Position numbers and translations under genes: made by a program. The notes beneath the pieces were generated by a model, which worked only from the letters and a program-made list of their open reading frames with translations, searched no databases and had not been told where the DNA came from. Below are positions 1 through 16,120 of a stretch of DNA of 64,000 nt, piece after piece; within the stretch, counting starts at the first letter, position 1, and every line of letters begins with the position of its first letter. The stretch is from contig JAQUPX010000002.1 of assembly GCA_028716385.1 (NCBI GenBank), positions 230,756 through 294,755 on the forward strand, read 5' to 3'. The stretch is from a bacterium (GTDB lineage: Bacteria > Hydrothermota > UBA3073 > JACQXS01 > JAQTXJ01).

Positions 1-387
1 TCTTAGCAATATTAAATGACTGAAAAGCCACCCTACATACAAAACTCCAAACATCGTTCCCGAAATATGGTATATTGCGCGGTCCATATTTCTTCTGTAT
101 AATTCGGAAATAGAAACAAACATCAAAAGCGCCGTAAGAGTCAAAACGGTGTAAATATGGGATGCATAAAAAGCAGCCCATCCAAGTGTTAACGCTGCAA
201 CCACGCCTATAAAAACAAAAGGTTTGAGTCCGCGTTTCTCTAATATTTTATAAAACTCATAAGCTCCTAAAGCAATGCCAAGTTCAATAAATAACAAATA
301 ATATATACCGCCTGTGTAGGCAACGAATATTAGTACCGGGATAAATAAAACCGAGGTTATTACCCTATAAAAAAGTTCACTTTTCAC
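1..387 (-). CDS. cdsA: phosphatidate cytidylyltransferase, N-terminal part (runs off window start)
   Basis: Minus-strand open frame from GTG at 387 to the window edge (129 codons, not in ORF track): KSELFYRVITSVLFIPVLIFVAYTGGIYYLLFIELGIALGAYEFYKILEKRGLKP..., multi-TM, directly downstream of uppS as in common frr-uppS-cdsA order. Confidence 0.75.
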   Translation of the reverse strand, partial: MKSELFYRVITSVLFIPVLIFVAYTGGIYYLLFIELGIALGAYEFYKILEKRGLKPFVFIGVVAALTLGWAAFYASHIYTVLTLTALLMFVSISELYRRNMDRAIYHISGTMFGVLYVGWLFSHLILLR

Positions 388-531
388 TTGCCTTGAATTC
401 AGTTACAAAACTCATTTTTTCCTATCTTATCTCTTTTAATCCGCACTCCCTGCCTACCGGCAGGCAGGCAAAATCTATTACCAACCCTTGAGTTATCTAG
501 GGATGGTTATCCAGCTCTGCTGGAAAATTTT

Positions 532-1248
532 CTACCTTCTGCCAAATCTCCGATTCCTTTGCTGATACCATTGTAGAGCCTCGATAAGAGCGGGAGTTTT
601 GAAATCAGGCCATAGAATAGGAGTGGTATATATCTCAGTGTAAGCAAGCTGGTAAAGGAAAAAATTAGAAACTCGTTGTTCCCCGGATGTTCTTATTAAA
701 AGGTCAGGGTCCGGTAATTTGGGCGCGTAAAGATAATTACGAAAACTATTTTCAGTTATACGCTTTGTAGGTCCCGTAATCTTATGAATGGCATCTATTA
801 TTTCTGCCCGTCCACTATATGATAACGCAAGCGTTAATTGTAAACCTGTATTATGACTTGTAGAGGTAAGAGCCTTATCCATTCTCTGTTTTATGGAAGG
901 CGGAAATTTACTCAACCTGCCAATAAATTGAACCGCTACGTTATTTCTATTTAGTTCGGGTAGTTCCTTTTCCAGGTGTTTTTCCAGAAGAGTTAATATC
1001 GCTTTTATTTCTGCAGGAGGCCTTTGCCAGTTTTCTTCGGAAAAAGTATAAAGTGTAAGAAATTTTATTCCCAAAGACCCGCAGGATTCAACCATTTCCC
1101 TGACAGAAGCGATACCTTGCGTATGTCCGTCAACTATAGGTTTTTTCCGTTGTGTTGCCCATCTTCCGTTGCCATCCATAATAACTGCAACATGAATAGG
1201 AAGATTATTCTTTATTAAACCGTGCTCTTCTATGTTTATATTTTTCAT
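532..1248 (-). CDS. uppS: isoprenyl transferase (undecaprenyl diphosphate synthase family)
   Basis: HVAVIMDGNGRWA and RTSGEQRVSNFFLYQLAYTEIY motifs. Confidence 0.95.
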   Translation of the reverse strand: MKNINIEEHGLIKNNLPIHVAVIMDGNGRWATQRKKPIVDGHTQGIASVREMVESCGSLGIKFLTLYTFSEENWQRPPAEIKAILTLLEKHLEKELPELNRNNVAVQFIGRLSKFPPSIKQRMDKALTSTSHNTGLQLTLALSYSGRAEIIDAIHKITGPTKRITENSFRNYLYAPKLPDPDLLIRTSGEQRVSNFFLYQLAYTEIYTTPILWPDFKTPALIEALQWYQQRNRRFGRR

Positions 1249-2509: not shown

Positions 2510-2671
2510 TTTATTTTCTACCCAGCTTTCTTGTCCGCCAGTCTTTTTGGTGGAAGCTGAGGGTATATGGGCTTTAGCCCTTTCTCTTCTACCCAAATTT
2601 AGTTGAGGGTTTTCTGGGCTTTAGCCCAAAAAAAAATCTTTCAACCTTCAAGTATTTTAACATTATAAATA

Positions 2672-3940
2672 TTATTTATTGCTCCCTGCGATTTTATCAA
2701 TTCCACCCATATATGGTCTGAGGACTTCCGGAATTACTATTCCTCCATCCGCAGTCTGGTATTGTTCAATTAACGTAATAAATAATCTTGGCGTTGCTAC
2801 ACCGGAACCATTTAATATATGAACGGCCTTCATCTCACCTTTATCCCTGAACCTTATTTTTGCGCGTCTTGCCTGGAATCCTTCGCAATTACTGCACGAA
2901 GAAACTTCAAGCCACTCCTTGCTCGCAGGTGCCCATAACTCTATGTCATAGGTCTTTGCAGACGCAAAACTCATATCATTTACGGGTAATAAGATTACCC
3001 TGTAAGTTAATCCTAATAACTTTAATACTTCCTCTGCCTCTTCAAGTAATATTTCCAACTCCTGATAAGAAGAATCAGGATGGACAAATTTTATAAGTTC
3101 AACTTTATTAAACTGGTGTAATCGTCTTAATCCTTTTGTCATTTTACCGTAAGAACCTGCTTCTCTTCTGAAACATGCAGTATATCCAACGTATTTAATT
3201 GGGAAATCTTTTGCGTCCAACACTTCTTCCTGGAATAAATTTATTACCGGAACTTCAGCCGTAGGATTAAGAAATAAATTATCTTTCCCTATAAAATACA
3301 TATCTTCTTCAAGTTTTGGTAACTGTCCTGTATGGAACATTGATTTCGGGTTAACCAGGTAAGACGGTAAAATCTCGGTATAGCCTTGTTTAATATGCAA
3401 ATCTAACATAAAATTAATAAGCGCTCTTTCAAGTCTTGCACCTAATCCTTTATAGCAGGGAAAATTAGAACCTACTACTTTAGTACTGCGCTTGAAATCA
3501 ACCATATCCAGCGATTCACATAACTCGTCTGAAGTTTTTGGTGTAAACTCAAATGCAATAGGAGTCCCATGTTCTTTTATCGTTGTTACGGTTTTAAGAG
3601 GAACTGATGGGTCGGGAATATTTGGCATCCAGCTTATTAACGTATAAAGCTCGGTTTCAACACCGGTAATTTCTACTGTCAATTGAGATTCGGATTCAGA
3701 TAACTGGCGGGATTGTTTTATCAAATCCTCTGCCTTATCTCCCTGCCCGGATTTTTTTAGTTCTGCTACTTTGAGGGAAATTTGTTTTTGCTCCGCCCTG
3801 ATAGCATCTCTTCTTTTTACGAGGTCTCTTCTCTTTAAATCAAGAAGCGTAAACTTATCAACATCAACGGATTCGCCCTTGAGTTCTGCCGACCTTTTTA
3901 TAAGCTCAAAATTATTCCTTATAAACTCAAAATCAAACAT
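2672..3940 (-). CDS. serS: seryl-tRNA synthetase
   Basis: MFDFEFIRNN start, class II motifs TACFRREAGSYGKMTKGLRRLHQFNKVE, LNGSGVATPRLFITLIEQYQ. Confidence 0.97.
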   Translation of the reverse strand: MFDFEFIRNNFELIKRSAELKGESVDVDKFTLLDLKRRDLVKRRDAIRAEQKQISLKVAELKKSGQGDKAEDLIKQSRQLSESESQLTVEITGVETELYTLISWMPNIPDPSVPLKTVTTIKEHGTPIAFEFTPKTSDELCESLDMVDFKRSTKVVGSNFPCYKGLGARLERALINFMLDLHIKQGYTEILPSYLVNPKSMFHTGQLPKLEEDMYFIGKDNLFLNPTAEVPVINLFQEEVLDAKDFPIKYVGYTACFRREAGSYGKMTKGLRRLHQFNKVELIKFVHPDSSYQELEILLEEAEEVLKLLGLTYRVILLPVNDMSFASAKTYDIELWAPASKEWLEVSSCSNCEGFQARRAKIRFRDKGEMKAVHILNGSGVATPRLFITLIEQYQTADGGIVIPEVLRPYMGGIDKIAGSNK

Positions 3941-4068
3941 AGTGTCTATGTTATATACTCAATCGCTTATTGTCAAGCTTAAAAAATGTTCTGTTAAATG
4001 ATATTAAACCACTTTTTCACCAAAGGCAGATCAGCCTCTGGATGACAAAATGAGTATTATCTTACTAG

Positions 4069-4089
4069 GGGCGACTCGTTGAGTCGCCC
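4069..4089. repeat. perfect 9-bp inverted repeat GGGCGACTC-gtt-GAGTCGCCC
   Basis: read directly; intergenic. Confidence 0.7.
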
Positions 4090-4186
4090 GATTAACCTGT
4101 AAGGTAGAGGGAGGGCATTTTTTTATCCGTGAAAATCCCTGCCTACCGGCAGGCAGGCGTGGCAAAAAATTCTTTTCTCTAATTAG

Positions 4187-4906
4187 TTACTTTTTATCGT
4201 AAATCGAAGGAAAATAAGACGAGGGGGCTAATCCTTTCTGAGTCTCTTTATCTAATTGTCCGTAATAAATATCCATTAAACTTTTTGGTTTATATTCTCC
4301 CAGTATTACGCTTATTAATCTTTCTGTCCGTTCTAAGTTTGCTTCAGGTCTATTTAAAATATTAAAGTTTTGGGGCGCAATTATCATAGCAACAATAGAA
4401 AGATATTCTCTTTCGGTTAATTGATTTAGCGGTTTATTATAATAAACGTTTGCTGCGTTATTAAAACCAATAACCCGATTACCATTTACATTCCCGAGAT
4501 AAATATTATTAATAAATAACCGGAGCTGGTCGTCTTTTGAAACTAGAGAATTTAATGCAAATACTGCTATTAGAGTTTGTTTGAGTTTGGCAAAACCGGG
4601 TTTGAAATGATTAAAATAGTATATTTTTACGAGTCCCTGGGTAATCGTTGTTATTCCTGCTCCTGGAGTTTTCAAATCCATACCGTTATGTTTGTAAAAA
4701 TTAGGGTCTTCAATGGTTAATAACGCATCTATCTGCCATTGATTTAAGTCGCTTACTTTTAAAGTCATATTATCCGCATTCAACACTTTTTTAATTATCT
4801 TAGGCGTATCTATCCTAGCTTTTATTACTACAATTGTACAATAACTCAAAATTATAGCAACAAGCAATATTATTACCCAAAAAGTAGTTTTTAAAAATCT
4901 TTTCAT
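4187..4906 (-). CDS. monofunctional peptidoglycan glycosyltransferase-like membrane protein (GT51 family)
   Basis: N-terminal TM; LLTIEDPNFYKHNG, GAGITTITQGLVK, NNIYLGN...GFNNAANVYYNKPLNQLTEREYLSIVAMI. Confidence 0.8.
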   Translation of the reverse strand: MKRFLKTTFWVIILLVAIILSYCTIVVIKARIDTPKIIKKVLNADNMTLKVSDLNQWQIDALLTIEDPNFYKHNGMDLKTPGAGITTITQGLVKIYYFNHFKPGFAKLKQTLIAVFALNSLVSKDDQLRLFINNIYLGNVNGNRVIGFNNAANVYYNKPLNQLTEREYLSIVAMIIAPQNFNILNRPEANLERTERLISVILGEYKPKSLMDIYYGQLDKETQKGLAPSSYFPSIYDKK

Positions 4907-5586: not shown

Positions 5587-5895
5587 ATTTATCTTTTGAT
5601 ATTATATTAATATGCTATAATGTCAATAAATTATCCCCATTCTTCTTTTCTCTTTTCTTCTCTGAGGTGAAATTTTCAATCCGTGCAAATCCGTGTAAGT
5701 TATCCGTGGCTAAATATCCTATTCTTTTTTGTACTTGTTTTAATTCGTGGATATAATCTATATTTTTAGGGTCCCGTTTCTCTTTTCCTCACTTAACATA
5801 TAAGAAGCTCTTGGACAAAGTCTTTAGAGATTCCTATCCAGTATCACTGGACTCAACTTACTTAACTCACTCAACTTTTTTATAACTAATCCGTC

Positions 5896-7047: not shown

Positions 7048-7269
7048 TGAAAAGTTTATTTTACTTTCATATTTTTCTACTATTTGTTTTTCATCGTTTT
7101 TAATCTTACAACTTTGTTCTCTGGAGTGGAATTTTTATCCGTGTAAATCCGTGTCAGTTATCCGTGGCTAATATCTGTATTCTGTTTTCTGCTTTTTCGT
7201 GTCTTAATTCGTAACTCCATTTTCTACTTTCGTGATTTCGTGGTAATTTTGTAATTTGTTGATTCCTTT

Positions 7270-7482: not shown

Positions 7483-7950
7483 AAGTTTGCATAAATTAAC
7501 AAGATAATTTAACTCGTCAATCTTTTTTCGTAAGAGTTGGTTAATTATTTGTTCGTTTTTTAACGCTTAAACTTTCTTTTTTTTTATTTAATCCGTGCAA
7601 ATCCGTGGCAAAATTATTTTTCTTCTCTGTGCCCTCTGGGACCTTTTATTCTCTGTTAATCTCGTACCAATCTTTTTCAATCCCTGTTAATATTCTGTTT
7701 TTCGTGTTTTCTTTGTTTTTTTGTGCTTTCGTGGTAGTCTTTTCTTTGTTCTTCTCCTCTGTGTCCTGTGGTTAGATTTGTCTGTCCTCTTTCTACTTTC
7801 TCCTCACTTAACTTACTTTACTTACTCAACTCACTCTACTATCTTTTTAAGTTGTCTGTTAACAAAATAATCCTTGACATTTCAAAGGAAAACAATTAAA
7901 AAGCTCAAAGAACTTAGTTAAAGTTAGATTTTACTTCAAAAGGGGGAACT

Positions 7951-14890: not shown

Positions 14891-16120
14891 CTACTTTATC
14901 TCCCCCATCTTTGTTATCTTTATCGGTTTATATCCGGCAACCTTAACAAAGTAAATCCCGGATTTTAGTGTTTTTCCTATGATATTATCTTTTGGCTCTT
15001 CTACTAATTTACCCGTAATATCATATATAGTTATTTCCGCCTGAGGCGGATTATTCGTAGATTTGTTCCCCGAATAACTAATAACGGTTTTTTCAACAAA
15101 CGGATTCGGATACGTTTCTATTTTTGATATTTGATTTTTTATATTTGATTTTTCCTCTACTCCTGTTCCCGTAGAATACCACACATCGCTATATGAAGCG
15201 CTATTATTAGCTCCACCTATTACCCACATTTTATTATCAAATGACAAAGCCGTATGCGCGGCTTTTGCTGCCCATCCAACCGTTCCCGTTGCCTGTGTCC
15301 AGTTTGCACCATCACTGGAATACCACACGTCATTAAAATAATTTAGAGTATCTTCCCCTCCGAATATCCACATTTTATCGTCAAAAACGGTTGCTCCAAA
15401 AAAGTCTCTCGGTGCCCATCCTGCTGCAGCGGTTGCTTGATACCAGTTTGCACCATCCGTAGAATACCATACATCATTGCAATCATTTCCGTCAACGGAA
15501 GCAAACCCTCCTATTACCCACATTTTATTGTCAAAAACAAGCGCCGAATGAGAAAACCTTTTTGACCATCCTGCAGCAGCAGTTGCCTGTGACCAGTTTG
15601 CACCATCCGTGGAATACCAGACATCGTTACAACCTGTTTGGTCAGCGGCTCCTCCAAGTATCCACATTTTATTGTCAAAAACTACGGATGCGTGCGAACC
15701 TCTTGCCACCCACACCGCGGAACTTGTTGCCTGTGTCCATCCTGCCCCATCAGTAGAATACCATACATCATTGTAAAAAATACTGTTATAAATTCCCCCA
15801 ATCATCCACATTTTATTATCATAAACTACGGATGTATGATCCCATTTTTTTGACCATGCCGTTGAAGCAGCTACCTGTGTCCAGTTCACTCCATTAGTGG
15901 AAGACCAAACATCCTGGCAAATAGTTGAACCGGCAAAATTATTTCCTCCCAATACCCACATTTTACCATCAAAAACAACCGATGTATGAGCACCTCTTCC
16001 TGCCCAACCTGCAGAACCGGTCGTCTCTACCCAGCTTATTCCTCCAAATAACAAATTACAAATTCCAAAACTACAAAACATACTTACTACTGCTTTCCTT
16101 ATAAAACTAATCTTTTCCAT
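14891..16120 (-). CDS. secreted Kelch-like six-repeat protein with C-terminal sorting-like domain
   Basis: Signal peptide; six repeats 'FDNKMWVIGG...NDVWYSTDGANWTQA'; C-term YPNPFVEKTVISY...IYDITGKLV...LKSGIYFVKV. Confidence 0.8.
   Translation of the reverse strand: MEKISFIRKAVVSMFCSFGICNLLFGGISWVETTGSAGWAGRGAHTSVVFDGKMWVLGGNNFAGSTICQDVWSSTNGVNWTQVAASTAWSKKWDHTSVVYDNKMWMIGGIYNSIFYNDVWYSTDGAGWTQATSSAVWVARGSHASVVFDNKMWILGGAADQTGCNDVWYSTDGANWSQATAAAGWSKRFSHSALVFDNKMWVIGGFASVDGNDCNDVWYSTDGANWYQATAAAGWAPRDFFGATVFDDKMWIFGGEDTLNYFNDVWYSSDGANWTQATGTVGWAAKAAHTALSFDNKMWVIGGANNSASYSDVWYSTGTGVEEKSNIKNQISKIETYPNPFVEKTVISYSGNKSTNNPPQAEITIYDITGKLVEEPKDNIIGKTLKSGIYFVKVAGYKPIKITKMGEIK

Follow-up and report, generated by a model that had tools for sequence, protein, structure and literature searches.

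A discrete, mobile-looking 20-nucleotide hairpin element in at least nine phylum-level groups of bacteria

Here we describe E, a 20-nt element of consensus CCTGCCTACCGGCAGGCAGG that occurs in bacteria of widely different affiliation. E is a real, discrete and very small mobile-looking element, among the smallest known; it is new in its sequence, its host range and its lack of a known enzyme, and its kind has precedent. We consider it probable (roughly 75%) that E is mobile, as a very small non-coding element inserted as a unit; no movement was directly observed. Within the window (the whole 64,000-nt stretch of DNA that was analysed), E and the repeats related to its insertion sites are located as follows:

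449-468, forward strand: E, exact consensus; junction CACTC^CAAAATC
4124-4172, forward strand: host repeat with E in place, TATCCGTGAAAATC-[E]-CGTGGCAAAAAATT, lying between two leftward ORFs (2672-3940 and 4187-4906)
4138-4157, forward strand: E, exact consensus, inside a dispersed ATCCGTG-type repeat; junction AAAATC^CGTGGC
5678-5713, forward strand: further empty ATCCGTG-type repeat
7589-7612, forward strand: empty paralogue of the host repeat, AATCCGTGCAAATCCGTGGCAAAA
14572-14591, reverse strand: decayed E, CCTGCCTACCGACAGGTAGG, with 2 mismatches; junction AATC^TGTGTCC, that is, TC^TG
Starts at 7136, 33837, 40625 and 41690: other empty ATCCGTG-type copies

A preliminary description of this DNA had noted a 20-nt block near 4138 and a second copy at 449-468; both are exact, and none arose in 100 shuffles of the window (chance expectation, 0 matches). 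That description bracketed 4139-4158, which is the same insertion read one base too far to the right because the C/C at the junction is ambiguous; TC^TG sites (for example, ATTC^TGTGGC) resolve this ambiguity and thereby fix the unit as the 20-mer given above. It also set the filled site at 4124 against an empty one at 7589. The empty-like text there does exist (AATCCGTGCAAATCCGTGGC), although as a diverged paralogue rather than an allele. The copy at 449 lies in a host text, CCGCACTC^CAAAATC, that differs from the host at 4138. Dispersed ATCCGTGNAAATCCGTG...CCGTGGC repeats of unexplained origin fill intergenic regions (window positions 5678, 7136, 7590, 33837, 40625 and 41690) and are hosts for E; similar text is present in WOR-3 and Stahlbacteria contigs.

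In the genome to which the window belongs (the own genome; 3.27 Mb in 25 contigs), E has 45 forward and 43 reverse matches with up to 2 mismatches (perfect palindromes being scored on both strands), compared with 0 matches genome-wide for a reversed-pattern control. The count is thus not that of random expectation, the outcome that would have spoken against the initial proposal. The total is about 60 copies, mostly solitary with a few clusters, and exact copies comprise 11 of the A-form and 18 of the G-form (CCTGCCTGCCGGCAGGCAGG). Within 852 kb of this genome, in stretches picked mainly for holding E copies, 67 places lie within 4 mismatches of E, the loosest of which may be chance matches. 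Nearly all close copies have TC as their left flank and CG, TG or CA as their right flank, and excising exactly 20 nt gives back ordinary dispersed text (AATC^CGTG, ATTC^TGTGGC). E is mostly intergenic. E-like 20-mers were also seen within long open frames at L040:9896 and L032:9977 (DprA-like protein; 843-aa frame), adding peptides such as LPADRHG.

E is a discrete 20-nt insertion with exact ends and without target duplication. Clean filled and empty sites are paired in a tandem duplication of Christiangramia (L092), where the filled copy adjoins the empty one, in a 121-bp repeat of the own genome (L033) and in a repeat in L148. In addition, tRNA-Arg copies interrupted by E are found beside intact ones; the interrupted copies are truncated or altered, with E in tRNA-derived sequence:

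L245:1448-1523, G015: tRNA-Arg copy with E
L026:9914-9980, own genome: tRNA-Arg copy with E
L125:5600-5720, Uhrbacterium: tRNA-Arg copy with E

Among viral contigs, L192 is filled where L184 is empty (94% identical over 273 bp). Between genomes, the sister species G015 and G013 have a syntenic stretch with genes 95-97% identical, and in an orthologous intergenic region G015 reads GTTAATC[E]TGCATCC against the empty GTGCATC^TGCGTCC of G013. The same region holds a second clean 20-nt insertion, the E relative CCTGTCTGCCGACAGGTAGA, between CACCACA and AAGG. No duplicated base was present in the filled/empty pairs within genomes, between viral contigs or between G015 and G013. Gain as a discrete unit, first proposed from the window alone, is therefore supported, and much more strongly outside the window, by the Christiangramia, tRNA-Arg, G015/G013 and L192/L184 pairs. 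Many flanks of E are themselves repeats, with long flanks in common to the Mucilaginibacter and Algoriphagus copies; larger duplications may accordingly have brought some copies with them.

The element is composed of a predicted 16-nt hairpin (a 6-bp stem, CCTGCC/GGCAGG, and a TRCC loop) and a 4-nt 3' tail, which is CAGG or one of the variants CAAG and TAGA; a change of tail leaves the unit at 20 nt. Across 94 distinct variants from 2.39 Mb, 10 compensatory double changes were counted for the CCTGCC-TRCC-GGCAGG hairpin and 0 for a full 8-bp palindrome, with variant stems such as CCTGTC/GACAGG, CCTGAC/GTCAGG and TCTGCC/GGCAGA. At one orthologous site, the own genome has TCTGCC..GGCAGA (T1-A16) and its sister CCTGCC..GACAGG (C1-G16), so that both partners of pair 1-16 differ. 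The set included variants with up to 4 mismatches, some low-scoring ones being register shifts or chance matches, and shared descent was uncorrected; the count is thus indicative. Energetically, the consensus as single-stranded DNA favours a longer hairpin, so that the case for the short hairpin is made by the variants, not by folding. As judged from this comparison of sequences, the short hairpin is conserved among the variants.

Target statistics were obtained from 84 A-form copies (11 in the own genome and 73 in family f5, which belongs to the same class), with orientation read from the asymmetry of the element itself. The preferred site is (A/T)C^YG: position -1 is C in 75% of copies, position +1 is C or T in 96% and position +2 is G in 62%, and the commonest junctions are TC^CG (18), TC^TG (14), AC^CG (9) and TA^TT (8). 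The last of these departs from the C^YG rule, as do CA^CG and the viral junctions GA^CT and AA^CG. E is inserted exactly within other repeats, including the ATCCGTG and TTTTTGATA host repeats, and also within its own kind: at 14 of the 76 scored f5 sites the copy has entered a diverged relative's loop, in every case at TRC^C (between the third and fourth loop bases), and this nesting adds whole 20-mers. A general preference for hairpin loops was not clearly found outside self-nesting, stems of at least 5 being present at 3.6%, 4.8% and 4.7% of sites versus 3.2-3.6% of controls.

Other small palindromes are present in the same DNA. One, TCCGCCTGAGGCGGA(C/T), occurs in the window near 15037 on the forward strand and once more on the reverse strand; it is dispersed at unrelated sites, at 31 places in the own-genome stretches, and once lies apparently inside an E copy (L047, reverse-strand position 3199). 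Window positions 2518-2566 and 1271-1305 form a filled/empty-like pair, CCCAGCTT[TCTTGTCCGCCAGTCTTTTTGGTGGA]AGCTGAGGG versus CCCAGCTTAGCTGAGGG, which belongs to another hairpin family of few copies.

The sister species G001 is syntenic with the window, with genes 89-95% identical. Neither window site (449 or 4138) has E in G001, where the intergenic DNA is without alignable counterpart; because whole intergenic regions have turned over, this absence is uninformative as to alleles. The intergenic text at window positions 380-560 and 3950-4230 could not be aligned to G001 C26 (L286), while the neighbouring genes are 89-95% identical, and it appears that the whole intergenic text of dispersed ATCCGTG, CTCTGCG and similar repeats has been replaced between the species. 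Three sites are common to G000 and G001, and each holds decayed E (1-2 mismatches); the exact copies examined, namely those at the two window sites and the one at L289 of G001, lack a counterpart in the other species. This pattern is as expected for continuing gain and decay, in a small sample.

Among 60 genomes (the own genome and 59 relatives), 12 have E matches with at most 1 mismatch. Copy number among the relatives ranges from 0 to about 110; family f5 has about 25-115 copies per strand, and most of the phylum has none. Beyond these relatives, an exact 24-mer (E with its flanking TC and CG) was found in at least 112 stretches of GTDB genomes; because this pattern fixed the flanks, these loci were left out of the target statistics. 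Among the matches listed are Omnitrophota, many Patescibacteria, Bacteroidota, Nitrospirae, WOR-3, TA06, Planctomycetota, Thermodesulfobacteriota/Syntrophaceae, Dehalococcoidia and Stahlbacteria, and the cultured Bacteroidota among them are Algoriphagus, Mucilaginibacter, Pedobacter, Litoribacter, Cognataquiflexum and Christiangramia. E thus extends over at least nine phylum-level groups, with cultured Bacteroidota among them; some labels of metagenome-assembled genomes may be wrong, but the assignments of the isolates are not in doubt. IMG/VR holds 41 E loci, and searches of plasmids and phages gave only chance-level partial matches. Neither the 20-mer nor its cores were mentioned in any relevant open paper that we found (subscription papers lay outside the search).

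Among the closest known systems are the SDR elements of Nostoc punctiforme, which, following Elhai et al. 2008 (Genome Res), are said to be dispersed units of 21-27 nt, some with a conserved hairpin backed by compensatory changes and with nesting in their own copies, and were reportedly described from a subgroup of cyanobacteria. E agrees with them in size (exactly 20 nt in filled/empty pairs, against an SDR-type unit of about 20-27 nt, with about 60 copies in the own genome), in a conserved secondary structure with compensatory changes, and in exact insertion inside other repeats and its own copies. It differs in that the same sequence extends over at least nine phylum-level groups, whereas SDRs come from that cyanobacterial subgroup. 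By analogy, then, E resembles the SDR elements in behaviour, with a far wider host range and an unidentified mover; membership is not claimed, no SDR sequence having been compared. SDR elements are cited in PMC4390886, PMC2884548 and PMC3116915, and SDR5 is inserted exactly between nucleotides 3 and 4 of the dispersed repeat HIP1 (PMC4390886). Yeast mitochondrial GC clusters are likewise tiny GC-rich hairpins in AT-rich intergenic DNA, with presence/absence polymorphism, merging and shuffling, and an unknown mover, but they belong to an organelle and GC42 is 42 nt long (PMC4478555). Rickettsia palindromic elements and enterobacterial RU-1/2/3 (103-168 bp) are also non-coding palindromic or hairpin insertions, some of them in genes, but are five to eight times longer than E (PMC2759123).

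No enzyme that moves E was identified. We infer that a function acting in trans, whether cellular or belonging to another element, would recognize the E hairpin and make copies of it, and that the hairpin may be joined at a C^YG site that is single-stranded or nicked; HUH-type strand transfer and hairpin capture at replication forks would be possible routes. Such a hairpin-DNA route, served by an unidentified trans-acting protein, is the explanation we favour, as a tentative inference only. It is conceivable, though not yet to be called probable, that much of the bacterial tree shares a single mobile 20-nt hairpin of essentially one consensus, served by undescribed and widely conserved hairpin-DNA machinery that joins it at C^YG, even within its own loop. 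If this is true, E would be the smallest cross-phylum mobile element.

The proposal that E is a REP-type palindrome moved in trans by RAYT, a Y1 HUH transposase (PF01797), is doubtful. IS200/IS605-type insertion makes no target duplication, and E is inserted without one; the hairpin with its tetranucleotide tail resembles REP anatomy, and Y1 genes are present in 11 of the 12 E-bearing genomes, the own genome included, versus 26 of 48 E-free genomes. However, the sister G001 has about 10 E copies and no Y1 match, the Y1 tree has no clade common to all E-bearing genomes, and the linkage to Y1 genes that a RAYT/HUH source, suggested in the preliminary description, would lead one to seek was not found: around 32 Y1 genes of E-bearing genomes, the flanking sequences examined (up to 1.5 kb) contain 0 exact E and only two decayed copies, and the 20-kb stretches around two own-genome Y1 genes contain none. 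REPs, by contrast, flank RAYT genes in the genomes surveyed (PMC3116915), and REP/REPIN palindromes carry a GTAG or CGTC tetranucleotide tag at one end (PMC3733652), whereas the ends of E are CCTG and CAGG/CAAG/TAGA. E shares with REP/REPIN sequences the character of a short, palindromic, intergenic repeat of high copy number that also occurs inside genes (PMC3116915, PMC3733652, PMC2817692), but it is mostly single and is gained as single 20-nt units, not as inverted doublets. Membership of E among REP/REPIN sequences was rejected on these tests, as was membership among insertion sequences (IS) and MITEs on theirs.

An RNA route, in which a transcript of E would enter target RNA or DNA by ligation or reverse splicing and then be reverse transcribed, would accommodate an RNA-like hairpin retained with compensatory changes and the insertions in tRNA-gene fragments. 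It is nevertheless improbable, and a resident reverse transcriptase is unlikely to copy E here from an RNA template: RVT_1 (PF00078) was detected in only 1 of the 60 genomes, an E-free one, and in neither the own nor any other E-bearing genome, while control genomes give matches; the genomes are drafts. We find it just as hard to credit that E, as a functional site such as a terminator, protein-binding or uptake-type sequence, is kept by selection and spread by recombination without being mobile. Strong conservation of its sequence across phyla and its mostly intergenic position would suit such a site; clean presence/absence at orthologous sites with conserved flanks (G015/G013), the insertions found in tRNA-Arg fragments and in the loop of E's own kind, and a copy number of 0 to about 110 among relatives do not. 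Least credible is that E is a remnant, with fused ends, of a larger IS or MITE. Palindromic ends would look like joined inverted repeats, but E lacks target duplication, ordinary genes lie between nearby copies at the six loci examined and nesting adds whole 20-mers.

With E, the size limit of mobile-looking DNA in bacteria becomes very low and its host range very wide; E also supplies an exact target and structure with which to seek its enzyme. For annotation it is a warning: when E is read through, predicted proteins acquire spurious peptides (LPAGRQ or PACRQAG, for example). Finally, E bears on the complete turnover of intergenic DNA in candidate phyla between species whose genes are about 90% identical.
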